A stretch of 33,749 bases of DNA from Spirochaetaceae bacterium (GTDB taxonomy: Bacteria > Spirochaetota > Spirochaetia > Treponematales > Rectinemataceae), in the NCBI GenBank assembly GCA_025355995.1, contig JANXYQ010000073.1:1-33749 (forward strand), in the 5' to 3' direction. Positions 3,555 to 23,648 of the stretch are shown piece by piece. Numbering within the stretch: position 1 is the first letter of the stretch; every line of letters starts with the position of its first letter. The notes beneath the pieces were generated by a model. It searched no databases. It saw only the letters and a program-made list of their open reading frames with translations, and was not told where the DNA came from. A program made the translations under genes and the position numbers.

Positions 3555-3582
3555 TTGACTAGGGGCGCGCAAGCATTATGCT
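3555..3582 (+). promoter_or_regulatory. Putative promoter of the sugar-sensor kinase, leaderless layout
   Basis: TTGACT (3555-3560), a 16-base spacer and TATGCT (3577-3582), then 7 bases to the ATG at 3590, so +1 would be the A of the ATG. The ATG at 3578 lies inside the -10 and cannot be on this transcript. This decides the start of the gene. Confidence 0.6.
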
Positions 3583-3589
3583 TACCGCA

Positions 3590-5921
3590 ATGCCGCGATA
3601 CAGGATCGGCCTATTCATACCGTTTACGATGAAACCTTGGACGCTTAGGCAATGGCAAGGCATATACAACGGCGCTCTAGAGCGCGGAACCGACCTCGTC
3701 GCGTACGTCGGCGGCGTGCTGGGGTCGACAGCCTTCGATGGCCAGGCCAATGTGCTGTACGACCTGGCCGACGTCGGGGAGCTCGACGGCTTGGCCATAT
3801 GGTCCACCGGGATCGGTTGGAACAAGCCGAGGCGAGAGATGGCCGATTTCCTGGAGCGCTACAAGGCCATCCCGCGCGTGAGCCTAGAGATGGCCTTCCC
3901 CGGGGTGCCGAGCCTGCTGCTGGACGACTATCAGGGGATGAAGGACGTCGTCTCGCACATCATCGAAGCGCATGGGTGCAGGCGTATCGCTTTCCTCCGA
4001 GGAGCCGCGACCCATGAAGGATCCGTACTCCGCTATAAGGCCTTCGTCGACGCCCTCGCGGAGCATGGCTTGTCTCCGGATCCCGATCTCGTCCCCGCGA
4101 CGAACCCCGACTGGGACGGGGCCGCGATGGCCGGCAGCGTACTCGAGAGATGCGGCGCGGATTTCGACGCGCTGATCGCGTCGAGCGAGTCCATGCTTAT
4201 CGGGGCGCTGCCGATCCTCGAGTCCGGCGGTATGCGCATTCCGGAGGACCTTTGCGTCGCCGGCTTCGACAACCTCCCCGAGGGGACTACCCTCACACCT
4301 CCCCTGACGACGGCGGACCCGCAGTTCTTCGAAATGGGCAGGCGGGCGGTCGAGCTGCTCGTAGACCAGATCGAGGGCCGCCCGGTACCGGAGCTCCAGA
4401 CCCTGCCCGTCCGCCTGGAGATCCGCGAGTCCTGCGGCTGCCCTCCCCGCGTCATCCGGGATTCCCTCGAGCGAGGAGGGGCGCGCCGCGTCCCGTTCGA
4501 GCCGCGCGCCGCGCGCGGCCCCGGCCATCCCGCGGCCGAGCCGGCCGCCGGCGATGTCCTTCGAGCTCTGGGCGCCGCCGGGCCGGGAGCGGACGGGGAA
4601 AGCCTGAGCCGGATCTGGGCCGCCTTCGTCGCGGAGGTAAAGGACGACGAGCGCGGATTCCTATCGATCCTCGACGAACTGCTGACCCGGGTCGCGGCGG
4701 CCGACGGCGATGTCGGCGTCTGGCTCGCGGTCCTCGGGGGCCTGAGGCTGCTCTCCTCGGACTGGATCGACGGCCTGTCCGTCGAGGCGCGGCGGCGCGC
4801 GGACGGTCTCTGGCTCGACGGCCACCGCCTGGTCGTCGACGTGGCGCGCCGAATCGAGATAAGGAGGGGCTTCCTCATCGAATCGCGACGGTCCGCGGTA
4901 CTCTCGATCAGCGAAACGCTCATCGCTACCTTCGACGCGCAGGCGCTGATGGACATCATCGCCCGCGAGCTTCCGCGGCTCGGGATCCTCGGCTGCTGGA
5001 TCTCCGTCTACGTTCATCCCGAAACGCCGACCGGGGAGGCTCGGCTCATCTTGGCCTGCGACGAGCGCGGACAGCTCCCGCTGCCCCCCGACGGGGTCTT
5101 CTTCCCCTCGCCGCAGCTCGCTCCCGCCGGATACCGCGTCGTCGATCGCCAATCCGTCCGCCTATTGCTCGCGCTCTTTTTCCGCTCCGAGAACATCGGA
5201 TTCGTCCTCTTCGACCTGAGGGGGCCCGATGACGCCTCCGTCTGCGAAGCCTTGCGCTGGCAGCTCAGCAGCGCCCTGAAAGGCTCCTTCCTGGTCCAGC
5301 GCGAAAAGGCGGAGGCGAGCGAGAAGGCGACCCTCCTGAAAGAGCTCCAGCACCGGGTGATGAACAGCATGAGCCTCATCTCGAGCATCGTCAGCCTCGA
5401 GTCTAGGAGGGCCAAGGCCCCGGAGACCGTAGAGACCCTCTCGAAGCTCGAGACGAGGATCCTCGCCCTGGCCTCGCTCTACAAAGCCCTGTACCATACC
5501 GGCGTCATCGAGCGGGTCGAGCTCTCGGACTACCTCGCGCGCGTCGTGGATTCCGCGGCCGCGGGCATGGGCGCCGACGCAAGGGGCATAGAATTCGATC
5601 GCGAAATCGAGCCCTGCAAGATCGACCTGAAGCGGGCCGTCTCCCTCGGCCTCATCGTAAACGAGCTCGTCACGGACAGCCTGAAGTATGCCTTCCCCCC
5701 GGGCCCCCCGGGGCCGGGTCGCGATAAAGCTCGAGCGCTCGCTCGGGATGCTCAGGCTCGAGGTCTCCGACGACGGCATAGGCCTCCCTGCGGATTTCGA
5801 TATCAAGACATCGAAGGGCTTCGGCCTGAATCTCGTCGCCCTGCTCGCCAAGCAGATCGGCGGCGACCTCCAGTTCGCCGCCTCGAAGGGCATGAGGACT
5901 TCGATAGTCTTCCCGGCCTGA
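3590..5921 (+). pseudogene. LacI-like sugar-binding domain fused to a HisKA_2 histidine kinase, frameshifted
   Basis: A soluble sensor kinase with no membrane segment. Residues 1-290 are a LacI/GalR-type periplasmic-binding fold (RIGLFIPFTMKPWTL, LDGLAIWSTG, RRIAFLRGA, CVAGFDNLP, TTADPQFFEMGRRAVELLVDQI) but lack the DNA-binding helix-turn-helix. A helical and GAF-like region follows (about 330-580), then a HisKA_2 domain (LLKELQHRVMNSMSLISSIV, phospho-acceptor His) and an ATPase domain. In SLKYAFPPGP, near 5690-5715, the frame is lost inside a C6-GGG-C6-GGGG stretch; the rest (GMLRLEVSDDGIGLP, KGFGLNLVALLAKQIGG) continues in the +1 frame to the TGA at 5919-5921. One extra base explains this, whether from mutation, phase variation or sequencing error. 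The start at 3590 follows from the promoter position. The stop abuts the stop of the convergent chemoreceptor. It probably senses a sugar in the cytoplasm. Confidence 0.85.
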
Positions 5922-7694
5922 CTAGAACTCCTCGAAATCAGGATCGCTGGCGTCGCCCTCAGCGGCCCTAATGGCCATCGCCCGGGGCGCCGCTTGCGAG
6001 ATCCTCGGCCTCGACGCGGCGGGCCTCGCGACCGGCGGGGCGCTCCGCCTCGGGGAGCCGGGCTTGGCGGTGGGCCGAGGCTCACCGGCCGATTCCGCCC
6101 CGCCGGCCTCGGCGACGTGGAAGAAGGAGACGGCCTCGTTCAGGCCCATCGCGCGGCCGTTGAGCTGCTCAGCAGTGGCCGCTATCTCCTCCGATTGGCC
6201 CGCGAGCTCCTCAGAGAGCGACGATAGCTCCTCCGAGGTCGACGCGTTGCTCTGGATCACCTCGTCGAGTTGGATGATAGCCTTGTTGATCTGCTCGACG
6301 CCGCTGTTCTGCTCGCGGGACGCGGCGCTGATCTCGCGCACGAGGTCGGCCGTCCGGATGATCGTGTCGAGGACGCCGCCGATGAGGTTCCCCGCCTTCT
6401 CCGCGGCCGCGACGCTGCTCATCGCGGTCTTGTTGATGTCGGAGGCGGCGATCTGGCTCCGCTCCGCGAGCTTGCGCACCTCGCTGGCCACGACCGCAAA
6501 ACCCTTGCCTGCGTCGCCGGCGCGCGCCGCCTCGATGGCCGCGTTGAGGGCCAGGAGGTTGGTCATGCGGGCGATCTCCTCGATGACGTCTATCTTCGAG
6601 CAGATGAGCCGCATCGCCTCGACCGTCTGGGCGACCGCTTCCCCTCCTTCCTTCGCGTCCTTCGCCGACTTGTCGGCGATCTTCTCGGTCTGCGACGAGG
6701 CCTCGGCGTTCTGGCGGACGTTGGCTCCCATCTCCTCCATGGACGAGGAGACCTCCTCCCCCGAGGCCGCCTGCTCGGTGGCGCCCTGCGACAGGGCCTG
6801 GGCCGAGTTCGAGAGGTCCTGTACGCCCTTCGACATCTGTTGGACGGAATCGCTGAGGGCGCCGGAGCCGCCCGAGACGTCGGAGGCTATGGTCTTGATG
6901 GAGTTCACGGCCCCCTTCATCGCCCCGACCATGGCGTTGAGCGCGAGCGCTAGCTCGCCAATCTCGTCGCTGCGCCCGACCAGGGCGTCCTCGAGGGTCC
7001 GCGTGAGGTCGCCCTCGGCGACGGAGCCCGCGAGCTGGACGGCGGTCCGGAGCGGCCGCGTGATGCCCCTCGCCAGCACGATGCCGATGACCGACCCGAG
7101 GGCGAGGAGGACCAGGGCTATGACGACGCTCAGGGTCTGCATCGTCCCGAGCGTCCTCTCGAAGGCCGCCTGGGCCAGGTCCTGGTCCTTGGCGAGCGAG
7201 TCCCTGACCTTGGCGAGGGAACCCGCGATCGATTTCATCGGGATGTCGATCTCGCCGTCGATCTCGGAGAGGAGGGCGAGATTTGCGGCCGCACCGCGCT
7301 CCAGCTGAGGAATGGTCTTGCCCTCGAACAGCGAGACGATCGAAGCGAACGCGGTCTCGGCCTCCGCGAGGTCGGCCTTCTCCTCGGGCGTATCGACCAC
7401 CGCGCGCAAGCCGATGAGCTCCGCCGTCGCGGACTTCTTCATGTCCGCCCAGCCCCGCTTCATCTCGCCGATATCCCCCCGGTTTATCACCGCGTCGGCG
7501 ATGACCTGGTATGCCACCGGCCCGAGCCTGCTCGAGAGGATTATCTTCGCCTCGTCGGAGGTCCGGCCGCTCATGGCCAGGAAGGCGCGATTCAGGCCGC
7601 CCAGCTGGATTACCATGAGCGCGCTATAGAGGACGATCAGGGCGAGAACCGACCCGAAGCCTATGAATAATTTTCTACCGATAGTGAATTTCAT
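5922..7694 (-). CDS. Methyl-accepting chemotaxis protein with CheR-tether C-terminus
   Basis: 590-residue transmembrane chemoreceptor. TM1 is residues about 8-30 ([20 protein letters not shown]), a helical periplasmic sensor of about 155 residues follows, and TM2 is about 187-210 ([20 protein letters not shown]). Then come a HAMP domain and a long coiled-coil signalling domain. The hairpin tip, which contacts CheA and CheW, is recognisable ([20 protein letters not shown]). After a Pro/Arg/Ala-rich linker the protein ends in DPDFEEF, a good match to the aromatic pentapeptide that tethers CheR or CheB. The start ATG at 7694 follows GGGGG. It is convergent with the sugar-sensor kinase. The ligand is unknown; the periplasmic domain resembles a four-helix-bundle sensor. 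Confidence 0.95.
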
Positions 7695-11511: not shown

Positions 11512-13245
11512 CTACTGTGGCGAGGGTCCCGCGACCGGCAGCTCAATGACGAAGGTCGTGCCCTCGCCCGGCTCGGACTCGACGGCCAGGCTGCCCCCGT
11601 GCTTGGTCACGATGATGTCGTAGGAGATGCTCAGGCCTAGTCCCGTGCCCTTCCCGGGCTCCTTGGTCGTGAAGAAGGGATCGAAGATTCGGGTGCGGAT
11701 CGCCTGGGGTACGCCGGGGCCGTCGTCGCGGATGATGATCCGCACGCGGTCTCCCCTCAAGGCGGTCTCTATTTCGATGAGCCCCTTCCCGGGCCGCTTC
11801 TGCGCTTCGATGGCCTGGGCCGCGTTGACGAGGATATTGAGGATGACCTGGTTGATCTCCCCTCCCCGCGCCTTGACCTGGGGCAGCTCGCCCAAGCTCT
11901 TCTTCGTATCGGCCACGTACTTGATCTCGTTGCGCGCGACGACGAGGCTGCTCTCGATCCCCCCGTTCACGTCGTAGAGCTCGAACTCGCTGCCCTGGTC
12001 TATGCGCGCGAAATTCTTCAGGTTGCCTATGATCCGCATGATCCTGGAGAAGCCGTCGGCCGACTCCGAAAAGATGGTGTCGAATTCCGAGAAGACGAAG
12101 GGCAGGTCGAACTTGGCCTCGATCGCCCCGATGGCCTGGCCGGCCGCGGAGCGCGCCTCGGCCCAGGCCTCCCGCAGCTTCGCGGTGTATCTCTCGAGGA
12201 TGACGTGATTGCTCTTCAGGAATCCCACGGGGTTGTTGATCTCGTGGGCGATCCCAGCGGCGAGCTGGCCGATCGACGTGAGCTTCTCCTGCTGGACCAT
12301 GATGACCTGGGTCTGCTGGAGCTTGATGTTCGCCTCGGCGAGCTCGAGATTGGCCTTCCAGAGCTCGCCCTCGTTCTTGATACGCTCGCTGATGTCCTTG
12401 ACGATGCCCTGGACCTCGATGATCTCGCCCTTCTCCCCCTTGAGGGTGTGGGCGGTCTCCAGGCAAAAGACCGTGCTCCCGTCCTTGCGCAGCAGGACTA
12501 TCTCGTAGTCCTCGATGAAGCCCTCCTCGCGGATGCGGCGCAGGAAGAACTCCCTGTCGCCGGCGTTGAGGGCTAGGGCCGAGAAGGGACGTCCGAGGAC
12601 CTCGCCCTTTTCAGCCCGGCCCGTCAGGTCGAGGCCGGCCGCGTTGACCGTGGTGAGGATGTCCTCCGAGTTGGCAGTATAGATCATGTCGCGCGAGTCC
12701 TCGAAGAAGGAGCGGAGCCTCTTCTCCTTCTCCGAGAGGAGGAGCTCGGCCTGGCGCCTGACGCTCTCCTCCCTCTCCCGGTTGATGCGTATGCCGACGA
12801 TGGGAGCGATCGTCGAGGCGATCGACGCGAGGGCGAGTTCCTCCTGGTCGTCCCAAGGCCGCGAGGACCTGCCGAGGAAGAGGTAGCCCACGTCGCTCTC
12901 GGAGGAATACAGCTTCGAGGAGATCCAGAACTCCAGCGACCCGCCGAATACGGGGAGAGCCCAGGGGCCGAAGCGCGCGGTCTCGGGACCGCCCTGGGCG
13001 CGGCTCACGCTCTCCCTCCACCGCGCCTCGCCAAGGCCGATTGGGAACTCGGTGCCCGCGAGGCAGAAGCGGTGTTCCCGGCGTCCGCTCACGTAGAAGA
13101 GCGCGGCCGCCTCGGCCCCGAAACGGCGCTTGAGGACGTCCACAGCCGCGATGTTGGCCTTCTCCGAGTCGTCCTGGGCGAAGTGCCGGCAGAGCTCCAT
13201 CGTCGCTTCGAGGGAGTCGATAGCCCGGGACGGATCCTCACTCAT
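11512..13245 (-). CDS. GAF/PAS sensor histidine kinase
   Basis: 577-residue soluble kinase. Residues about 20-165 look like a degenerate GAF domain, and about 170-295 are a PAS domain (FFEDSRDMIYTANSEDILTT). A coiled coil leads to a HisKA domain with the phospho-acceptor in LAAGIAHEINNPVGFLKSN, then an ATPase domain with the N box (NILVNAAQAIEAQ), DDGPGVP, FDPFFTTKEPGKGTGLGLS and a final HGG. All catalytic motifs are intact. Its ATG lies inside the end of the STAS gene (8-base overlap), so the two are translationally coupled and probably work together. It is the last gene of the minus-strand operon, followed by a hairpin. The natural receiver partners are the REC proteins encoded upstream. 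Confidence 0.95.
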   Translation of the reverse strand: MSEDPSRAIDSLEATMELCRHFAQDDSEKANIAAVDVLKRRFGAEAAALFYVSGRREHRFCLAGTEFPIGLGEARWRESVSRAQGGPETARFGPWALPVFGGSLEFWISSKLYSSESDVGYLFLGRSSRPWDDQEELALASIASTIAPIVGIRINREREESVRRQAELLLSEKEKRLRSFFEDSRDMIYTANSEDILTTVNAAGLDLTGRAEKGEVLGRPFSALALNAGDREFFLRRIREEGFIEDYEIVLLRKDGSTVFCLETAHTLKGEKGEIIEVQGIVKDISERIKNEGELWKANLELAEANIKLQQTQVIMVQQEKLTSIGQLAAGIAHEINNPVGFLKSNHVILERYTAKLREAWAEARSAAGQAIGAIEAKFDLPFVFSEFDTIFSESADGFSRIMRIIGNLKNFARIDQGSEFELYDVNGGIESSLVVARNEIKYVADTKKSLGELPQVKARGGEINQVILNILVNAAQAIEAQKRPGKGLIEIETALRGDRVRIIIRDDGPGVPQAIRTRIFDPFFTTKEPGKGTGLGLSISYDIIVTKHGGSLAVESEPGEGTTFVIELPVAGPSPQ

Positions 13246-13609
13246 CGGATTCCTCGAGGCAGAAGAAGGAGAGGAGTCCGAGCGTGTCCATGATCTTCCT
13301 GATCCGCGCGGGCATGTCGAGGAGCACGAGCCTCACCGACCGCCTTTCGGCGGCGATCATGACGGTCGAGAGCAGCCCCACGCCAGTAGACGATATGTAG
13401 CCCACGCCGCGGAGGTCGAGCACGAGCCTGCCCCGCGCAGGGCATTCGTGGAGGACGGCCGAGAGGAGGGGCGCGATGTCCGTGGCGGCCTTCATCTCCA
13501 GCTCCCCCGAGAGCTCGAGCACGACGTCGCCGCATTCAGAGCGCCTCGAGCCCACGAGGCCTGCGGGATGGCCCTCGTTGTATTCCCGGAGGAGCTCGTC
13601 GAGGGCCAT
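13238..13609 (-). CDS. STAS-domain anti-anti-sigma-like protein
   Basis: 123 residues, essentially one STAS domain as in RsbV and SpoIIAA. The core strands (GDVVLELSGELEMKAATDI, GRLVLDLRGVGYISSTGVGL) are clear. S74 or T75 in YISSTGVG is the likely phospho-acceptor, and the REC-SpoIIE phosphatase encoded 5 bases upstream would remove that phosphate. In known modules the dephosphorylated protein binds an RsbW-like anti-sigma kinase, but none is in the window. It has no good ribosome site of its own, so coupling to the upstream gene is likely. It overlaps the next kinase gene by 8 bases. Confidence 0.9.
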   Translation of the reverse strand: MALDELLREYNEGHPAGLVGSRRSECGDVVLELSGELEMKAATDIAPLLSAVLHECPARGRLVLDLRGVGYISSTGVGLLSTVMIAAERRSVRLVLLDMPARIRKIMDTLGLLSFFCLEESDE

Positions 13610-13614
13610 TGGGA

Positions 13615-14775
13615 CTACAGCACCCGGGCCGTGACGATCGTGACGTCGTCGTCGAAGTCCGCCCTGCCGGACTCGGCCAACGCGGCCTCGAGGAGCTTGC
13701 GGTGATAGTCGGAGGAATACTCTACTCGTTCGAAGAGGGCTACAGGCTTGATCGGCTCGCAGCCTTCGCAGGCGCCCGGCTCCGTGAGGCCGTCGGTGAA
13801 GAGGCTGATCACGTCCTCGGACTTAATCGCGACGGACTGCTCGGCGTAGGCGATCGAATCCGCGAAGCCCAGGCCCGAACCGGAGATCGGGAGCTCGATG
13901 GCCTTCCCCAGCCGCAGGATCACGGGGTGGGTCTGGCCCGCGTTCGCGTACCGGAGGGTCCCCGCCTTCATGTCGAGGACGCCCGCGAAGAAGGTGACGA
14001 TGAGGCCGGAGGCGCTGCGCAACTCGAAGTTGAGCCGCTCGTTGAGCCAGCTGAGGAAGAGGCCCGGCGAAAAATCCTTGCCGATGGCGCCTCGGACGTA
14101 CTCGGGGTAGATGATGGCCTTGAGGATGCCGGTGACCAGGGCCGCGCGGACGCCATGCCCGGCGACGTCGCCGATGAGGAGGAGGTACTTGTCGGAGGAA
14201 AGGAGTATCACGTCGTAATAGTCCCCGCCGCAATAGAGGCCGGGCACCGGCCTGTAGCTGGCCCTGAATTCCAGCCCGTCCGTGCGCGGGAGGCTCGGCT
14301 TGAGGATGGCCTTCTGCATCTCGCCCGCCCACTTGAGCTCCTCCTCCATGATCTTGAGGTAGCGGGCGTTCTGGCGCTTGAGCTCGCCGAACTCGAAGGC
14401 CTTCTGCAGCTCGGCCACGAGGTAGTCGGATTCCCAGGGCTTGAGCATGTAGCTGAAGATGCCCGCCTTCACGGCCTTGATCACCTCCTCCGTCTCCGAG
14501 TAGCCGGTGAGGAGGATCGTGACGATGTCCGGGTATTTCTGTCCGACCGTCGTCAGGAAGTCGGAGCCCTTCATCTCGGGCATCTTTAGGTCGGAGACCA
14601 CGATGACGACGTCGCCTTCCCTCTCCGCGAGGAGCTCCAGGCCCTTGCGGCCGGAGATCGCCGCGAGTATCTCCAGCCCGCGCTCGATGGACCAGTCGCG
14701 GAGCTCCCGCTTGAGGGCGTTGAGGATGTTCTGCTCGTCGTCGACCAGGATTACGCAGCGCTTTTTTGTCGCCAT
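13615..14775 (-). CDS. Response regulator with SpoIIE/PP2C phosphatase output
   Basis: 386 residues. The receiver domain (1-120) has the acidic pocket (VDDE), the phospho-acceptor D62 (SDLKMPEMKG) and the switch Thr (LLTGYS). A coiled coil leads to a SpoIIE-type PP2C phosphatase (about 190-386) with metal-site motifs CGGDYYD, LIGDVAGHG, LFTDGLTEPG and DDDVTIV. Its job is a phosphorylation-controlled Ser phosphatase, most likely acting on the neighbouring STAS protein. An in-frame GTG at 14793 exists, but the ATG at 14775 has the good site (AAGGAAGGA), so I chose it. The architecture is that of RsbU/HsbR-like regulators. Confidence 0.94.
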   Translation of the reverse strand: MATKKRCVILVDDEQNILNALKRELRDWSIERGLEILAAISGRKGLELLAEREGDVVIVVSDLKMPEMKGSDFLTTVGQKYPDIVTILLTGYSETEEVIKAVKAGIFSYMLKPWESDYLVAELQKAFEFGELKRQNARYLKIMEEELKWAGEMQKAILKPSLPRTDGLEFRASYRPVPGLYCGGDYYDVILLSSDKYLLLIGDVAGHGVRAALVTGILKAIIYPEYVRGAIGKDFSPGLFLSWLNERLNFELRSASGLIVTFFAGVLDMKAGTLRYANAGQTHPVILRLGKAIELPISGSGLGFADSIAYAEQSVAIKSEDVISLFTDGLTEPGACEGCEPIKPVALFERVEYSSDYHRKLLEAALAESGRADFDDDVTIVTARVL

Positions 14776-14799
14776 TATTCCTTCCTTCTCCACGGGCCG

Positions 14800-16959
14800 T
14801 CACTCGGACGGGAATCGGAGGATCGCCTCGGTTCCCTTGTCGCCGCGGAATTCCATCGTGCCCAGCAGCTGGTTCGCAAGCGAATGGACGAGTATCATGC
14901 CGAGCGAATCCGCCATCCCGGCCTCGTAGTCCTTCGGCAGGCCCACTCCCTCGTCCCGCACCGAGAGCTCGATGCGGGCGCCGACGCGCCGGAGGGCGAT
15001 CCGGACAGAGGCTTGCGCCGAATCGCCGCCGGGATAGGCGTGGGTCAGGGCGTTCGACAGGAGCTCCGCGGCCACGAGGCCGGCGGGCACCGCCTTCTCC
15101 AGCGTGAGCAGTACGGCATCGCTGCCCGGGGCTATGGCTATCCTGTCGCGGGACTTCCCCCTCTCGCCGGAGAGCCCGTCCGCGAGTTGACGGAGGTAGA
15201 GGAGGAAGTCGATGCGCGCCATGTCGGGGGAGCTGTAGAACTGCTCGTGGACGAGGGACATCGACATCACCCGGCGCGAGACCTCGCCGAGGATCTTCTG
15301 GAGCCCGGAATCCGCAATCTTCTGCGAGGACAGGCTCAATAGGCTGATTATCAGCTGCATATTGTTGTTGATGCGATGGTGTATCTCCCTGAGCAGGACA
15401 CTGTTCTCATCCAGCGAGGCCCTGATCCTCGCTTCGGACAGTTCCCGTTCGGTCACATCGCTCTTGATCGCGATGAAGCTCCTGATGGCCCTGGACTCGT
15501 CGACCACCGGGGTGATGGTCATCTCCTCAGTATATTGGGTCCCGTCCTTCCTCTTGTTGACCAGCTTGCCCCGCCAAACCCCGCCCGAGAGTATGGTGTC
15601 CCACAGGGATCGATAGAATTCCGGACCCTGTTCGCCCGACTTGAGCAGGCGGGGGTTCTTTCCCGCGACCTCGCCCGGCGGATAACCGGTCAGGGCCTCG
15701 AAGGCCGGGTTGGCCCACTGGATGGCGCCGTCGCGGTCGGTTATCACGATGGCGTTAGCCGCCGCGTCCAGGGCCTGGCTCTTGAGCGAGAGCTCGGACT
15801 CGGCGCTCTTCCGGTCGCTGATGTCGGTTAGGGTCCCGACAATCTCGGCATCGCTGTGCTCCGACTGGACGAAGCGCATCTCGTCGCGCAGCCAGACGAT
15901 GCCGCGGTCCTTCCGCTGGAAGCGGTACTCCTGGCCGAAACTGCCCTTCGTCGTCAGCTTGGAGATACCGCCCAGGGCCTGCATCCGGTCCGCGGTATGG
16001 ACGTTCCGCAGCCACCAATCCGGCGCCAGCACCTCTGCGAGGGAGTAGCCCAGGAGGCCGCATATGTTCTCGCTCGCCCACTGCCATCGGGCGGCCCCGT
16101 CCTTGATCCGCATCGAGTAGGTCACCGTGGGGCTGGTGGAGAGGTAGTGGTCGAGCCGCGATGAGAAGTCGTCCCGTGCCCGCTCCGCGGCGACCCGCTC
16201 CGAGATATCGTGGACGATGGAGAAAAGGTGGGGCCTGCCCCCGAGGACGATGGGCCCAGAGTGGGTCTCCACGTCGACGAGGGAGCCGTCCGACCGCTTT
16301 TGCTTAAGGATGAAGTGGTGGTTCCTCATGCTGATCGCGCGGTCGACATTTCTCTCGATCTCGTCCTCCGCCAGCGTGTTGTACACCGTCATCTTCTGCC
16401 CGAGCAGGGTCTCCTTCGTCCAGCCGTAGAAATCGCAGGCGGCCTGGTTGGCCTCGACGATGGTCCTTTTCTCGGGATCTATGATGATCATCACGGCGTG
16501 GCTGTTCTCGAAGAGGGCGTGATAGCGCTCCTCGCTCTCGCGCAGGCCGCTCGCGGCCTCCGCCGACGCCCTGCGGCTCTTCTGGAGCTTGAGGGCCTCG
16601 GCGACCGCGAAGGGGAGGCGCGTGATGTGCTCCTTGATCACGTAGTCGCCCGCCCCCGCCTTCATGCATTCGACCGCGGTATCCTCGTGCATGGAGCCGG
16701 TGAGGATGATGAAGGGCAGATTAGGATCGCGGGCGTGGGCGAGGCCCAGGGCCGACATGCCGTCGAAGACCGGCATCGAATAGTCGGATATGACGACATC
16801 GGGGCGGAACTCCTCGAGCGCCGCGAGGAAGGACTCCCTGGTATCGACCCTCATCGGCTCCAGGTCGAGCCCGCCCTTCCTCAGTACCCGCTCGGCCAGC
16901 TCGGCATCCGTGGGAAGATCCTCTACGAAGAGGACTCTCAAGGGCTTTTTTTCGATCAC
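14800..16959 (-). CDS. REC-PAS-PAS-PAS-HisKA_2 histidine kinase
   Basis: 719 residues, soluble. It starts with a receiver (VLFVEDLPTDAE; phospho-acceptor D59 in VISDYSMPVFDG). Three PAS domains follow (about 140-260, 265-385, 390-505); the third has TDRDGAIQWANPAFEALTGY. A HisKA_2-type domain is centred on LLREIHHRINNNMQLIISLL (His near 525), and an ATPase domain follows (AAELLSNALTHAYPGG, VRDEGVGLP). The N-terminal receiver means the kinase can be switched by an upstream kinase as well as by PAS ligands, making it a relay node. It lies 43 bases after the single-domain receiver and 24 bases before the phosphatase regulator. No defects are seen. Confidence 0.94.
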   Translation of the reverse strand: MIEKKPLRVLFVEDLPTDAELAERVLRKGGLDLEPMRVDTRESFLAALEEFRPDVVISDYSMPVFDGMSALGLAHARDPNLPFIILTGSMHEDTAVECMKAGAGDYVIKEHITRLPFAVAEALKLQKSRRASAEAASGLRESEERYHALFENSHAVMIIIDPEKRTIVEANQAACDFYGWTKETLLGQKMTVYNTLAEDEIERNVDRAISMRNHHFILKQKRSDGSLVDVETHSGPIVLGGRPHLFSIVHDISERVAAERARDDFSSRLDHYLSTSPTVTYSMRIKDGAARWQWASENICGLLGYSLAEVLAPDWWLRNVHTADRMQALGGISKLTTKGSFGQEYRFQRKDRGIVWLRDEMRFVQSEHSDAEIVGTLTDISDRKSAESELSLKSQALDAAANAIVITDRDGAIQWANPAFEALTGYPPGEVAGKNPRLLKSGEQGPEFYRSLWDTILSGGVWRGKLVNKRKDGTQYTEEMTITPVVDESRAIRSFIAIKSDVTERELSEARIRASLDENSVLLREIHHRINNNMQLIISLLSLSSQKIADSGLQKILGEVSRRVMSMSLVHEQFYSSPDMARIDFLLYLRQLADGLSGERGKSRDRIAIAPGSDAVLLTLEKAVPAGLVAAELLSNALTHAYPGGDSAQASVRIALRRVGARIELSVRDEGVGLPKDYEAGMADSLGMILVHSLANQLLGTMEFRGDKGTEAILRFPSE

Positions 16960-17002: not shown

Positions 17003-17443
17003 TCACGGCTGCTCGTTGAGCAGCAGCCAATACAGGCCGAGCTCCTTCACGGCGTCCACGAACTTGTCGAAGTCGACGGGCTTGACGATGTAGCTGTTCA
17101 CGCCCAGCCGGTAGCTCTCGATGAGATCCCGCTCCTCCTTGGAGGTCGTGAGCACGACAACGGGGGTCAGCCTCGTGCGCTCGTCGGCCTTTACTTCCTT
17201 GAGGACCTCGAGGCCGTCGACCTTGGGCAGCTTCAGGTCCAGGAGGATGAGCCGTGGCCTATCCGATACATCCCGGCCCTCATACGCCCCCCGGGCGAAG
17301 AGGTAGTCGAGGGCCTCCGCCCCGTCCCCGAGGTGCAGGACGTTGTTGGCGAGGCGGTTCTTGCGAAGGGCGCGGATCGCCAGCTCGGCGTCGTTCGGGT
17401 TGTCCTCGACGAGGAGGATGTCCACCTGTTTCTGCTCGTACAT
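17003..17443 (-). CDS. Single-domain response regulator (Rcp1-like)
   Basis: 146 residues, a stand-alone receiver without an output domain. The acidic pocket is in [12 protein letters not shown], the phospho-acceptor D69 in [13 protein letters not shown], the switch Thr in [12 protein letters not shown] and the Lys in [11 protein letters not shown]. The PNDAEL pattern and the insertion near residue 50 are typical of Rcp1-type receivers that pair with phytochrome-like kinases, which fits the kinase just upstream (2-base gap). The ATG at 17443 has GAAGGAG at the right distance; longer frame extensions overlap the kinase gene and lack a site. It probably passes phosphate between the kinases of the cluster. 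Confidence 0.94.
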
Positions 17444-17445
17444 CG

Positions 17446-18921
17446 TCAGCTCCTTCTCGGTATGGAAAAATAGAACGTAGATCCCTCTCCGAGGCGGCCC
17501 TCGGCCCAGACCTTCCCTCCGTGGCGGGCGACTATCTTCTTGACCATGGCGAGGCCCACGCCGTTTCCGGGGAATTCGACCTCGCCGTGGAGCCGATTGA
17601 ACATGCCGAAGAGCTTGTCGGCGTAGCGCGGGTCGAAGCCTACGCCGCGATCCCGGACGTAGTAGACGCTCACGCCGTCCTCGGCGCGTCCCCCGACCTC
17701 GATCGAATGCCTCGGGCTCGGAACCGAGTACTTGAGCGCGTTGGAGAGCAGGTTGGCCCAAACCCGCTCGATCATGGGCGCGTCGACGTAGGCATCGGGC
17801 AGGTTGCCCACCCGGAAATCGAAATCGCTCGCGACCTCGGGGCCGGCGACCAGGGCGAAAGCGTCGCTGGCGGTTGACCGCATGTCCACTGCCGAGAGGC
17901 AGAGATCCGTCCTGCCGAGGCGCGAGATCTCCAGCAGGCTCCCGATGAGATCGTCCATCTTCACAGCCCCCCCGCGGATGATGGCGAGGATGCGCGCCCC
18001 TTCGGCGCTCAGGGCGGGGCCCAGCTCCTCCTCGAGGAGGCGGGAGTAGCCATCGATCGATCGCAGGGGGGCCCGGAGATCGTGGGCGACGGAGTAGGCG
18101 AAGGACTCGAGCTCTTCGTTCGAGGTTCGGAGCTCGGCGGTGCGCAGGGCGACGCTCTCCTCGAGGTTGGCCTTCGAGGTGAGGAGGCCCGCGAGGGACT
18201 CGGTCATGCGGTTGATCCCTAGGGCCACCTCCGATATCTCGTCCCCGGAATCCGTCGCGAGCCGGTAGCTAAGCTCCCCGCCACCTATGACGGTCGTGCC
18301 TTCCTTCAGGCGCCCTATGCCCGCGTTCAGGATCCGTCCGATCAGAAAGCCGTTGACCAGTACCACCGCCACCACCACGGCGAGGCAGGCTCCGAAGAGC
18401 CAGTTCGATGCCGACATCAGGAAGCTGAGCTCGCCGAAGCGGAGCTCGACGAGCCTCGCGGCGTCGTCGCGCAAGATAGAAGCCCGTATGTTCAGCTGGC
18501 TGAAGAGGGTCTGGTCGTACTCCGCGGCGAGGCTCCGCGCGATCGGATCGGAGTCCATACCCCTCGTATTCTCGATCAGCTTGGCGAAGAGCGAGTTGAT
18601 GTTCGCACCCACCTCACTCATTTCCACGAGGATCTCCTGGTCTTTCGCTCCCTGGAAATCCAAGCGCGCCCTGGTCAATTGCCCGGCCAGGGTCGCGGTC
18701 TTGGCCAGCCACTGCGACTTGGGGCGCTCCTCGCGGTGGATATAGTACTCGTCTCTCAGCATGATCCTCTCGAGCACGGTGTCCCCAATGTCGTTCGCGA
18801 GGCTCAAGTCTTTGTTCGCCTTCCAGATCCGGTCGGTGGAGTACCACAGGGAGCCGAGGGAGACGAGGATCATCGCCAGGGAGGCGCCCATGGTGAGCGC
18901 GAGAAGGGAGCGAATCCTCAT
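17446..18921 (-). CDS. Membrane histidine kinase with HAMP domain, coupled to a solute-binding protein
   Basis: 491 residues. TM1 is about 8-27 ([20 protein letters not shown]), with a helical periplasmic domain of about 150 residues (CHASE3/four-helix-like). TM2 is about 178-200 ([20 protein letters not shown]), then HAMP. The phospho-acceptor is in [19 protein letters not shown]. The ATPase domain is of the phytochrome-associated type ([38 protein letters not shown]). The ATG overlaps the stop of the upstream binding-protein gene (ATGA), so the two are made together, and the periplasmic domain probably reads that protein's ligand state. The phosphate acceptor is probably the Rcp1-like receiver encoded two bases downstream. 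Confidence 0.95.
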
Positions 18922-19907
18922 CGGGTAAGCCTCATCCTCTCCGGAGCGACGGAGTGGAGGGCGTCCCCCCGCAGTGTATCGAGGTAATTCGGCATCCCCG
19001 CGTACGATGCGGGCCGCAGGTCCATGGCCCAGCGGGACTCGTCCTCGAGGACCAGGAGGAGGGATTGCTCGATGCCCACCTGGAATCGAAACAGCTCCAG
19101 CAGGGGCTTAAGCCTGCTCTCGTCGGTCCTCGTGTACGAGGCGATTATCGACAGGGCCTTCTCCGGGCTCTGCTTCATGAATTCCTCGCCGCGGATCAGG
19201 GCGCGGATCAGGCCCCTCATCGCGGCCGAATTTTTCTCGACGAAGGCTCGGCCGCCGACGACCAGGTCGCTCGCCGTGTAGATGCCCTCCCCGGAGAATA
19301 CCGTCCCCTTCCCCCCGAGGACCGCGTCGACCTCGAGGAGGAGGGGATTCCAGAGCACCGCCGCGGCGATCTTCCCGCTTTTCAGGTCGCGAAGGATATC
19401 CCCGAGCTGAGTATCGATTATCCTGACCCGCGAATCCGAGATCTTGTTCGCTACCAGGAAGGAATGGAGGAAATACTCGGTGGCGCTGCCCCTCGTCACC
19501 CCGATAGCCTTTCCGACCAGGTCGGCTGGCTTCGCAACCCCGGAAGCCCGGTTGGCGACCAGGGCCAGGTTCCTATCGGAGGACCCGACGGCCGCGACGA
19601 CGCTCAGCCTCTCGCCGCCGAGGATGGCGAAGACCAGGGGAGTTTCCAGGACGGTGGCGAGGTCTGCCTCTCCCCTTATAAGGGCGGCCAGGGCGTCCTT
19701 GCCGACGACGAAGGGCTTGACGTTCACGGCGAGGCCCTCGGCCTCGAAATAGCCCTGGGCGAGGGCGACGTGGACAATGCCGAAGTCCGGGTTCATGACG
19801 CAGGCGAGGTTGACGGGCGTCTGTCGTACCGCGGCCTTCCGCGCGTCCCTGACGCAACCTGCGAGCAGCAGGGCCGCCGCGATGACAATCGCAATTCCTT
19901 TTTTCAT
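18918..19907 (-). CDS. Lipoprotein solute-binding protein (SsuA/NMT1-like), orphan
   Basis: 329 residues. The signal peptide ends in a lipobox (LLLAGC, Cys 18), so the mature protein is membrane-anchored and faces the periplasm. The fold is that of the SsuA/TauA/ThiY group (type II binding proteins for sulfonates, nitrate or thiamine precursors): FGIVHVALAQGYFEAEGL, GEADLATVLETPLV, LVGKAIGVTRGSATEYFLHS. The ligand is unknown. No ABC permease or ATPase is encoded nearby; instead it is translationally coupled to a membrane histidine kinase, so a sensing role is likelier than transport. The ATG at 19907 is chosen because the signal peptide starts there and GAGGAG precedes it. Confidence 0.92.
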   Translation of the reverse strand: MKKGIAIVIAAALLLAGCVRDARKAAVRQTPVNLACVMNPDFGIVHVALAQGYFEAEGLAVNVKPFVVGKDALAALIRGEADLATVLETPLVFAILGGERLSVVAAVGSSDRNLALVANRASGVAKPADLVGKAIGVTRGSATEYFLHSFLVANKISDSRVRIIDTQLGDILRDLKSGKIAAAVLWNPLLLEVDAVLGGKGTVFSGEGIYTASDLVVGGRAFVEKNSAAMRGLIRALIRGEEFMKQSPEKALSIIASYTRTDESRLKPLLELFRFQVGIEQSLLLVLEDESRWAMDLRPASYAGMPNYLDTLRGDALHSVAPERMRLTR

Positions 19908-20073: not shown

Positions 20074-21858
20074 ATGAATACAGCAGGGTCACGTCCGCGC
20101 CCGGCCAGCGCCGCGCTGGAGCTCATCCGCCTCATGCCCGAGCTCTCGGAGGCGCCGAGCGAGGCGGAGGCGATCGCGCTCTTCGTAGCGGCGATCGGGA
20201 GGATCTGGCCTGGGAGAGCGGCGGGCTTCCGGGTCTCCCTCCCCGAGGGGGAGGATTCGCTCTCGATCGAGGGCGCCCAGCTCCTGCCGAAAGCGGACCG
20301 CGAGCTCATCGAGGGCGCGGTCGACATGCTCCGCCTCGTCCTAAAATGCCGGCGGGAGCGCGAATACCGGCTGGCGAACGCCCGCTTCCGCCGCATGATC
20401 GACTCGAATATCGTGGGCGTAGCCATCGCCACGGCGGACGGCAGGATCGTCGAGGCCAACGACTATTTTCTGAGGATAGTGGGTTTTACGAGAGCGGAAT
20501 TCGAGTCCGGCATCGTCGATTGGCGGACCATCACCCCGCCCGAGTGGCTGCCGGCGGACGAGGCGGCGATCGGGGAACTGCGGAAGCGGGGAACCTGCGC
20601 GCCTTACGAGAAGGAATACGCGCGCCGCGACGGCTCCAGGGCCGCCGTGCAGATCGTGGACGCGCTGCTGCCCGGTCCGGAGGAGCAGATCGCCGCCTTC
20701 GTCCTCGACGTCACCGCGAGGAGGCGATCCGAAGAATCCCTCCGCGAGGCGCAAAAGATGGCCCACCTCGGCTTCTGGCGCTGGGAGGTGTCCACGGGGG
20801 CGGTGGAGTGGTCCGAGGAAGTGTACCGGATCTTCCGCCTCGATCCAGGGAGCTTCGTCCCGCGGATCGAATCGATCATGGCCCTCTCGCCCTTGGAAGA
20901 CGACAATCAGCGGGATCGGGAGCTCATCCGGAGGGCGACCGAGAGCCGCGAGGCGGGAAGCTACGAGCAGCGCTTCCTCCGGCCGGACGGCGGGGTCGGC
21001 TATTATTCCTCGACCTTCCATGGGGAGTACGACGGAAGCGGAGGCCTCGCGCGCATCATCGGGACCGTGCAGGACATCACGGAGCGGAAGGAGGCGGAAG
21101 AGGCGACGCGGCTGCGGGAGCGGCGCGACGCCGAGGGCCTGGAGCGGCTCGTCCGAGAGCGTACAGCCCAGCTCGTGGCGGCCAACGCCGAGCTCGAGGC
21201 CTTCGCCTACTCGGTCTCCCACGACCTCCGGGCGCCGCTACGGGCCATCGACGGCTACACCAGCATCCTCGTCGAGGGCTACGAGCCCCTCCTGGACGCC
21301 GAGGGCCGCAGGATCTGCGCCGTGATAGTGGAGAGCGCCCGGCGCATGGGCGCCCTCATCGAGAAGCTCCTCTCCTTCTCGCGCGTGGGCCGCAGCGGGA
21401 TGGAGCCCGTAGCCGTGGACATGGGCGAGCTGGCCACGAAGGTCTTCCTCCAGCTTACGAACACCAAGGCGCGGGAGCGGATCTCGCTGCGCATCGCCAA
21501 ACTTCCGGCAGCCTTCGGCGATCCCGGCCTCCTGCGCCAGCTCTGGGCCAACCTCCTCTCGAACGCCTTGAAATTCACGTCCAAGAATCCGCGGGCCGTT
21601 ATCGAGGTGGAGGGAGAAACGAGCGAGTCCGAACTCGTGTACTCGGTCAAGGACGACGGCGCCGGCTTCGACCCGCGCTACGCGGACAAGCTCTTCAAGG
21701 TATTCCAGCGCCTGCACCGCGTCGAGGACTTCGAGGGGACGGGTGTGGGCCTGGCCATCGCCCACCGCATCGTGGCGCTCCACGCGGGCAGGATCTGGGC
21801 CGAGGGCAGCGTGGGCGGCGGGGCGACATTCAGCTTCACGCTGAGGAAGGACGCATGA
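20074..21858 (+). CDS. PAS-PAS sensor histidine kinase
   Basis: 594-residue soluble kinase. After a helical N-terminus come a PAS domain (about 100-220; FRRMIDSNIVGVAIATADG) and a second, PAS_3-like domain (about 225-345; AQKMAHLGFWRWEVSTGAVE). The phospho-acceptor His is in [19 protein letters not shown]. The ATPase domain has [31 protein letters not shown] and GTGVGLAIAHRIV. The ATG follows GAGGGGGAAGGGG. The catalytic half closely resembles the kinases encoded at 17446-18921 and 21855-23648, which suggests duplication. The next kinase starts within the stop codon (ATGA), so the pair is co-translated. It lacks a membrane anchor. Confidence 0.95.
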   Translation: MNTAGSRPRPASAALELIRLMPELSEAPSEAEAIALFVAAIGRIWPGRAAGFRVSLPEGEDSLSIEGAQLLPKADRELIEGAVDMLRLVLKCRREREYRLANARFRRMIDSNIVGVAIATADGRIVEANDYFLRIVGFTRAEFESGIVDWRTITPPEWLPADEAAIGELRKRGTCAPYEKEYARRDGSRAAVQIVDALLPGPEEQIAAFVLDVTARRRSEESLREAQKMAHLGFWRWEVSTGAVEWSEEVYRIFRLDPGSFVPRIESIMALSPLEDDNQRDRELIRRATESREAGSYEQRFLRPDGGVGYYSSTFHGEYDGSGGLARIIGTVQDITERKEAEEATRLRERRDAEGLERLVRERTAQLVAANAELEAFAYSVSHDLRAPLRAIDGYTSILVEGYEPLLDAEGRRICAVIVESARRMGALIEKLLSFSRVGRSGMEPVAVDMGELATKVFLQLTNTKARERISLRIAKLPAAFGDPGLLRQLWANLLSNALKFTSKNPRAVIEVEGETSESELVYSVKDDGAGFDPRYADKLFKVFQRLHRVEDFEGTGVGLAIAHRIVALHAGRIWAEGSVGGGATFSFTLRKDA

Positions 21859-23648
21859 ACCTCATCGACATGCGCACCATCTTCCTGACTCAGATCATGA
21901 CCGACGCCCTGTGCACCCTGGTGATGGCCCTCCTCTGGTTCCAGAACCGACGCCGCTTCCCGGGCATCGGGTACTGGCTCCTGGACTTCGCCCTCCAGAC
22001 CGCCGCCATCCTCCTCATCCTCCTGCGGGGAGTCATTCCGGATTGGCTTTCGATGACGGTCTCCAATGCCGCGGTGATAGTGGGGTCCCTCCTCGGCTAC
22101 GTCGGCCTCGCCCGCTTCGCGGGGAAGAGGGTGCCGCAGGCGCACAACGTTGCCCTCGTCCTGCTTTTCATCGCCGTCCACATCTATTTCGAGGTAGCCA
22201 GTCCGAGCATAGCCGCGCGCAATCTCAATGTCTCGCTGACCCTCCTCGCCATCTGCGCGCAGTGCGTCTGGCTGGTCGCGCGCGGCTTCGCGCCGGGCGC
22301 GCGCCGGGGCTCGCGCTCGGTCGCCCTGGTCTTCTTCCTGTTCTGCCTGGTGAGCCTGATCCGCGTCGGGGTCATCGTCGCGAAGCCGCCCACGAGCCAG
22401 GATCTCTTCCGCTCGGGGAGCTACGATACCCTCGTGCTGCTAAGTTACAAGCTCCTCCTCATCGCCCTGACCTTCGCCCTGACGCTCATGATCAACGGCC
22501 GCCTCCTCCGCGAGATCCGGAGCGAGGAGGAGAAATTCGCTACGATCTTCCGCCTCTCGCCCTACGCCATCACCCTCTCACGCATGGAAGACGGCCGCCT
22601 CCTCGACGCGAACGAGGCCTTCCAGAAGATCTCCGGCTACTCCTCCGCCGAGGCCATCGGAGAGAGCGCCGTAGACCTTCGGCTCTGGGCCGCCGCGGAT
22701 AACCGCGAAGAGGTGGTCCGCGACCTAGCCGCGGGGAGACGGGTCTTCGGCAGGGAGTTCCTATTCCGACGGAAGTCGGGCGAGCTCCTCACGGGCCTCT
22801 TCTCGGCCGAGATCGTCGACCTCGACGGCCGCCCCAGCATGCTGGCCAGCATAGCCGACATCACCGAGAACAAGCGGGCCGCCGAGGAGCTGCGGGCCCA
22901 GGCCGAGGGCTTCGCCGCCGAGCTCGAGCGCCGCGTCGCCCTGCGCACAGCCCAGCTCGAGGCCGCCAGCGAGGAGCTCGAGGCCTTCGCCTACTCGGTG
23001 TCCCACGACCTGCGCTCGCCGCTGCGTGCGGTGGACGGCTTCGCACGCATCCTCGCGGACGAATACGGCTACCGTCTCGACGACGAGGGCAGGCGGATCT
23101 GCTCGGTGATCGGCGAGGGCGCCGGCGAGATGGGCAGGCTCATCGACGACCTCCTCGCCTTCACGAAGCTCGGCCGCTCCGCCATGCGGCGCGAGGCGGC
23201 GGACATGGAGGCGCTGGCACGCTCCGCCTTCCTCGAGGCCGCGGGCAGCGAGGATCGGGCGCGGATCGACTTCCGCCTCGGGCCCCTGTCCGCTGCCCAT
23301 GGCGACGCCAGGCGACTCGGCCAGGTCTGGCTCGAGCTCCTGTCCAACGCGGTGAAATTCTCCTCCAAAAAGGAGAGGGCGGTCATCGAGGTGGCCGCCT
23401 CGGAGAGCGAGGATGAGATCGTCTATTCCGTCCGCGACAATGGCGCCGGCTTCGACATGGCCTTCGCCCACAAGCTCTTCCGCGTTTTCCAGCGCCTGCA
23501 CGGGGCGACCGAGTACCCGGGGCGAGGAGTCGGGCTGGCCATGGTGCATCGGATAATCGGTCGCCACGGCGGCCGCGTCTGGGCCGAGGGCAGGCCGGGA
23601 GAGGGGGCGACCTTCTCCTTCTCGCTGCCCAGAAACCCGAGGCTTTAG
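21855..23648 (+). CDS. Multi-pass membrane PAS histidine kinase
   Basis: 597 residues. The first 220 form about seven hydrophobic helices with short loops (IMTDALCTLVMALLWFQN, LQTAAILLILLRGVIP, LLLIALTFALTLMING), an integral-membrane sensor like the 7TM or MHYT types but not one I can name. A PAS domain follows (about 225-345; FATIFRLSPYAITLSRMEDG). Then come HisKA (FAYSVSHDLRSPLRAVDGF) and the ATPase domain (ELLSNAVKFSSK, DNGAGFDMAFAHKLFRVFQ, GRGVGLAMVHRII). The ATG at 21855 overlaps the previous stop and has AAGGA upstream; the open frame reaching back to 20346 is a shadow. It is paralogous to its neighbour in the catalytic half. Confidence 0.94.
   Translation: MNLIDMRTIFLTQIMTDALCTLVMALLWFQNRRRFPGIGYWLLDFALQTAAILLILLRGVIPDWLSMTVSNAAVIVGSLLGYVGLARFAGKRVPQAHNVALVLLFIAVHIYFEVASPSIAARNLNVSLTLLAICAQCVWLVARGFAPGARRGSRSVALVFFLFCLVSLIRVGVIVAKPPTSQDLFRSGSYDTLVLLSYKLLLIALTFALTLMINGRLLREIRSEEEKFATIFRLSPYAITLSRMEDGRLLDANEAFQKISGYSSAEAIGESAVDLRLWAAADNREEVVRDLAAGRRVFGREFLFRRKSGELLTGLFSAEIVDLDGRPSMLASIADITENKRAAEELRAQAEGFAAELERRVALRTAQLEAASEELEAFAYSVSHDLRSPLRAVDGFARILADEYGYRLDDEGRRICSVIGEGAGEMGRLIDDLLAFTKLGRSAMRREAADMEALARSAFLEAAGSEDRARIDFRLGPLSAAHGDARRLGQVWLELLSNAVKFSSKKERAVIEVAASESEDEIVYSVRDNGAGFDMAFAHKLFRVFQRLHGATEYPGRGVGLAMVHRIIGRHGGRVWAEGRPGEGATFSFSLPRNPRL

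Follow-up and report, generated by a model that had tools for sequence, protein, structure and literature searches.

A solute-binding lipoprotein of the NMT1/SsuA type paired with a membrane histidine kinase in a Spirochaetaceae genome: comparative evidence for a dedicated sensory binding protein

In TorT-TorS and LuxP-LuxQ, an adjacent kinase is gated by a periplasmic binding protein; the periplasmic domain of LuxQ is PAS-like. The D-xylose system XylFII-LytS of Clostridium combines a binding protein with a kinase whose periplasmic domain of ~120 residues is a four-helix bundle, and XylFII contacts helices H3 and H4 of this bundle (PMC9769921). CuaD-CuaSR of Ruminiclostridium, which responds to cellobiose, comprises a signalling binding protein encoded in an operon with a kinase and a regulator (PMC10384115). 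Among the characterised kinases activated by solute-binding proteins (SBPs), 10 of 11 are encoded beside their SBP, and AgtS and AruS showed no activation by the neighbouring SBPs tested (PMC11113362); adjacency is therefore no proof of activation.

Here we analysed a locus of a Spirochaetaceae bacterium in which a binding lipoprotein of a type usually assigned to importers is encoded with a sensor kinase, within a stretch of 33,749 nucleotides (the window). Given this pairing, the lipoprotein is most likely the detachable sensing part of the kinase.

Gene pair, operon, and transporter genes

The binding-protein gene starts with ATG and encodes the lipobox LLAGC with the lipid-anchor residue Cys18, this lipoprotein signal forming the N-terminal start of the protein (MKKGIAIVIAAALLLAGC). 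The match to the Pfam family NMT1 reached 85.7 bits (cut-off 20.5, E 5e-24) and passed the curated score; together with the SsuA/TauA fold of the AlphaFold model, it bore out the SsuA/NMT1-type fold proposed in an earlier note on this DNA. The kinase starts inside the stop codon of the binding-protein gene (CGATGAGG), and the shared ATGA described in that note is present (Table 1). The expression "translationally fused" that the note had used applies to the overlapping stop and start, but no fused protein is encoded. The kinase contains H280, the N box, and both G boxes, and an extracytoplasmic domain of ~140 residues, close to the previous estimate of ~150, lies between its two TM helices. 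The region between these helices matched no Pfam or NCBIfam family in the window copy.

Table 1. Features of the binding-protein/kinase locus and the genes that follow it
Feature	Position	Strand	Evidence
NMT1/SsuA-type solute-binding lipoprotein, 329 aa	18918..19907	-	PF09084; AlphaFold pLDDT 93; SsuA Z 30.8, TauA Z 29.6
ATGA overlap, binding-protein stop / kinase start	18918..18921	-	sequence; kept in L022, L023, L024
Membrane histidine kinase, 491 aa: TM1 - helical periplasmic domain - TM2 - HAMP - HisKA - HATPase_c	17446..18921	-	
Periplasmic sensor domain, ~residues 31-172, predicted four-helix bundle	18406..18831	-	AlphaFold pLDDT 94; LytSN Z 16.5
Rcp1-like single-domain response regulator	17003..17443	-	PF00072; 77% identical in L022
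Receiver - PAS repeats - HisKA_2 kinase	14800..16959	-	Pfam; syntenic in L024, 53% identity
Receiver - SpoIIE-type PP2C phosphatase	13615..14793	-	Pfam; syntenic in L024, 69% identity
STAS-domain (anti-anti-sigma type) protein	13238..13609	-	Pfam; syntenic in L024

The Rcp1-like regulator gene starts 2 nt past the kinase stop codon, and a 60% identical regulator adjoins the binding-protein/kinase pair of another locus (L028). The regulator is likely the direct phospho-acceptor of the kinase, via D69. The receiver-PAS-HisKA_2 gene probably belongs to the same operon, and the receiver-PAS-HisKA_2, receiver-SpoIIE, and STAS genes that come next suggest an output via a phosphorelay and a partner switch rather than through a DNA-binding regulator encoded next door. 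Scans for promoters and terminators returned no signal for the operon beyond the chance level, and no riboswitch or other RNA family hinting at a ligand was found in the window at gathering thresholds.

Further sensor kinases are encoded in the window. Divergent from the binding-protein gene are two overlapping PAS-histidine kinase genes (20074-21858 and 21855-23648, plus strand), whose kinase cores closely resemble that of the studied kinase. A 797-aa protein (3578-5971, plus strand) with a LacI-type Peripla_BP_3 domain and a HisKA_2 kinase domain represents a second binding-protein-like sensor kinase.

The absence of a permease or ATPase gene from the window, as claimed before, holds for ABC types: the contig had no match to the ABC permease family BPD_transp_1, the window had no SsuB/SsuC-type gene, and a Pfam scan of 30 ORFs of the window showed no ABC permease or ATPase. 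An EamA-family transporter is encoded ~14 kb from the pair. The source genome (4.5 Mb, 95% complete) encodes four NMT1 proteins over the cut-off, the studied binding protein among them, and those of C13 and C117 are each in an operon with a permease and an ATPase. A genome-wide search for SsuC-type permeases, in line with the check for an orphan importer proposed in the earlier note, returned only those of C13 and C117, both accompanied by an ATPase and a binding protein of their own. As both already sit in full operons, the assembled genome has no spare permease, and the unpaired cognate permease that would have counted against a sensor did not turn up.

We rejected an assignment of the binding protein as an SsuA aliphatic sulfonate importer subunit (TIGR01728), for which it scored 82.5 bits against an NCBIfam threshold of 163.5; by context, no SsuB/SsuC-type ATPase or permease is encoded with it. 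In another NMT1 protein of the source genome, C43 (L012:5453-7207), an N-terminal NMT1 domain, a TM helix, and a HisKA_2 kinase domain make up a single 585-aa chain, in which NMT1 sensing and kinase are naturally fused. Counting this fusion and the studied binding protein, NMT1-type sensing would thus occur at least twice in this genome.

Conservation and phylogeny of the pairing

Binding-protein searches covered 149 related genomes, one species-wide collection scan, 393 genomes of the phylum, and 244 genomes of the class containing a Geobacteraceae relative. The pairing with a membrane sensor was found at ~60 other genomic loci in several bacterial groups. The first ten relatives (31-49% identity, or belonging to the divergent tandem set of G032) came from the window's family and order, Gammaproteobacteria, Desulfuromonadales, Magnetococcales, Deltaproteobacteria, and Geobacteraceae, and in all ten the gene directly downstream encodes a kinase that shares the N-terminal sensor, at offsets of -4 to +27 nt. 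The ATGA overlap was kept in four loci, the window included, with 42-49% protein identity in the other three.

In the Geobacteraceae-containing class, 52 binding-protein matches of at least 190 bits corresponded to 51 loci, two of which were cut by a contig end; a two-TM membrane sensor followed the binding protein in all 49 testable loci. Because the full-sensor profile (A2) gave many HAMP-only matches, we built a periplasm-only profile (A5). The latter identified 38 of the paired sensors, the longer profile identified 10, and one was a 4HB_MCP_1 hybrid kinase; ten of the 49, very divergent in periplasmic sequence, are known mainly by their TM/HAMP layout. At ~40 of these loci, the flanks were scanned, and no ABC gene turned up close to the binding protein; the paired loci of other groups that were checked for ABC genes likewise had none. 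In the window's phylum, the pairing was present at eight of nine loci (G000, G010, G018, G032, G060, G069, G278, and G297), and at the ninth (G170) the binding protein had no kinase and lay beside an HD-domain gene.

Outside the sensory clade, the first matches checked below it (L169 and L170; 153 and 145 bits) and ten relatives from the phylum were in ABC operons, and five others (L101, L102, L103, L105, and L107) had no adjoining ABC gene and stayed unassigned. Plasmid relatives (~25% identity), one with annotated ABC genes, were importer proteins and served as controls.

The reverse association was weaker. Of the 51 matches to the periplasmic domain in the Geobacteraceae class, 12-13 had no binding-protein match upstream; the sensor domain can therefore also exist on its own or have a partner encoded elsewhere. 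At one of the 13 (L219:2948-3992, plus strand), a clade-type binding-protein gene was split over two overlapping frames; most of the others were kinases without any binding-protein gene. The split gene, located in front of a 1559-aa hybrid kinase, reflects a frameshift or a sequencing error. The kinases of L212, L213, and L215-L218, a subgroup in this class, carry the sensor domain with no binding protein nearby, and for most of them an Rcp1-like regulator comes next. At L026:6835-9884 (minus strand), a single kinase is preceded by three paralogous binding proteins in tandem, and at L162 by two, an arrangement suggesting several ligand subunits per receptor.

A tree built from 56 binding proteins grouped the sensory set, all 40 members of it, to one side of a single branch with an ultrafast bootstrap of 84 and an SH-aLRT of 95, which was seen in 88% of bootstrap trees. 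E57, K70, E241, E288, R292, and the lipid-anchor Cys were far more conserved in the kinase-linked set than in ABC-linked proteins. Pairwise distances of the binding protein correlated with those of the kinase periplasmic domain (r = 0.63, 39 non-redundant pairs; partial r given HAMP 0.61) and less with those of HAMP (r = 0.30), which we take as supporting evidence only because shared ancestry contributes. The cytoplasmic outputs of the partners varied (HisKA, HisKA_2, HisKA_3, or only PAS domains) and the sensor layout persisted. In one clade member (L165:1642-5310, minus strand), the partner kinase carries a 4HB_MCP_1 sensor in place of the usual domain, a partner swap. The partner sensor at L153:5158-6126 (minus strand) has TM-HAMP and ends in the short Cys-containing motif CMYCKKIRDD; no kinase domain was found in it.

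Taken together, pairing in distant lineages, membership of one clade, the lack of ABC neighbours, and the lack of an orphan SsuC-type permease strongly favour, at the level of sequence comparison, a dedicated sensory binding protein. With somewhat less assurance, we lean towards a broader reading, namely that a whole SsuA/NMT1 lineage in Spirochaetota, Desulfuromonadia, and Proteobacteria left transport and became an obligate, interchangeable ligand-sensing subunit of four-helix-bundle sensors with freely swapped outputs and a shared ligand.

Predicted structures, mechanism, and alternative explanations

We predicted structures of single chains with AlphaFold2 on 50-sequence alignments (model scores in Table 1). 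The N-terminal model of the kinase was an all-helical four-helix bundle (helices 3-62, 65-88, 92-120, and 126-213) that ran on into both TM helices; a PAS-like sensor of the LuxQ type was rejected on this ground. Among the best structural matches of the bundle were McpS (Z 17.2), LytSN (1.5 A over 122/122 residues), QseE (13.6), and TorS (13.1). The LytSN-like fold is common to many other sensors and receptors, and because designed bundles also score Z 14-16, the fold alone says nothing about partners. The window sensor matched none of the Pfam families 4HB_MCP_1, CHASE3, HBM, and TarH, and 26 members gave single weak HBM and CHASE3 matches. Its most conserved polar residues (E51, R52, R56, D57, Y59, R66, Q70, W71, E134, R138, and Q142) lie near the turn between helices 1 and 2 and the beginning of helix 4, which by topology is the membrane-distal end; in the model, this set forms a candidate docking or signalling surface.

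We consider it quite probable that the pair encodes a dedicated three-component sensor, a binding-protein-gated kinase with an architecture closest to XylFII-LytS, which feeds the Rcp1-like regulator and a SpoIIE/STAS branch. We infer its steps as follows, from ligand binding and physical contact to the response sign and phosphotransfer route. The lipid-anchored protein would bind a small periplasmic solute, probably anionic or heterocyclic by analogy with the family, and would dock on the four-helix-bundle domain of the kinase rather than deliver the solute to a permease. Closure on the ligand would change bundle packing and, through TM2 and HAMP, set autophosphorylation at H280, with subsequent phosphotransfer to the Rcp1-like regulator.

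Alternatively, the lipoprotein might serve an unlinked SsuBC-type importer, with the adjoining kinase incidental or a regulator of that importer. Most NMT1 proteins examined do serve ABC importers, and in other systems a single binding protein is known to serve both purposes, as for BctC (PMC9602780). The source genome has two SsuC-type permeases, but both belong to complete operons with their own binding proteins; a further permease may have been missed, as the genome is 95% complete. Since close relatives scanned with flanks show no ABC genes and have a membrane sensor next to them downstream, and the kinase-linked clade is separate from the ABC-linked proteins, we regard this explanation as unlikely.

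We give a similarly small chance to direct sensing by the kinase, in which the helical domain would bind its own ligand in the manner of NarQ or McpS and the binding protein would tune the response or add a second input, without being an obligate receptor. Such a reading would accommodate the kinases that have this sensor domain and no adjoining binding protein, the similarity of the fold to the direct-binding sensors McpS and NarQ, and the conserved polar set near the predicted bundle tip. It is at odds with the almost exclusive pairing wherever the binding protein exists and with the joint divergence of binding protein and sensor. The structural matches of the binding protein include the enzymes DszB, Thi5, and MqnA/D, and an enzymatic or scavenging role in place of sensing could thus be envisaged; the lipoprotein signal, the pairing with kinases, and SsuA and TauA, both binding proteins, as the closest structural matches make this highly improbable.

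Owing to their family, kinase-linked NMT1 proteins are likely to carry annotations as importer components. If they are receptors, they would provide kinases of environmental bacteria with unknown inputs, many of the Geobacter type, with a defined soluble subunit and an easy ligand screen, and they would offer a clear example of how a family of transport proteins gave rise to a clade devoted to sensing.

Comparison with known systems

The principle of a binding-protein-gated kinase is known; the NMT1-type family described here is widespread and appears to be undescribed. In the open-access papers searched, we found none that describes kinases of this kind with an NMT1-type binding protein as partner, which does not prove absence. 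In its working, the locus would most resemble XylFII-LytS, TorT-TorS, and CuaD-CuaSR. The studied protein shares fold and Pfam family with the NMT1 binding proteins SsuA, TauA, and NrtA, and differs from them in having no linked ABC permease or ATPase and in the clade-enriched residues listed above. CuaD, in contrast, is sugar-binding, and the regulator of that system controls a neighbouring importer operon, none of which was seen at this locus.

QseG-QseE is similar in that a lipoprotein acts on a helical kinase sensor domain, although QseG is not a solute-binding protein. The earlier note had suggested a sensor in the style of LuxP-LuxQ or TorT-TorS. The comparative evidence supports the dedicated sensory binding protein implied by that suggestion, but the binding proteins of both systems belong to other families, and the TorS sensor is longer. 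Because the periplasmic domain is predicted to be a four-helix bundle, XylFII-LytS is a nearer analogue than LuxQ, as are, to a lesser degree, TorS and QseE. XylFII-LytS differs in that XylFII is sugar-binding and not of the NMT1 type, the kinase core belongs to the LytS family, and the sequence identity of the two bundles is only 12%; the combination of a binding protein with a kinase bearing a four-helix-bundle periplasmic domain is common to both.
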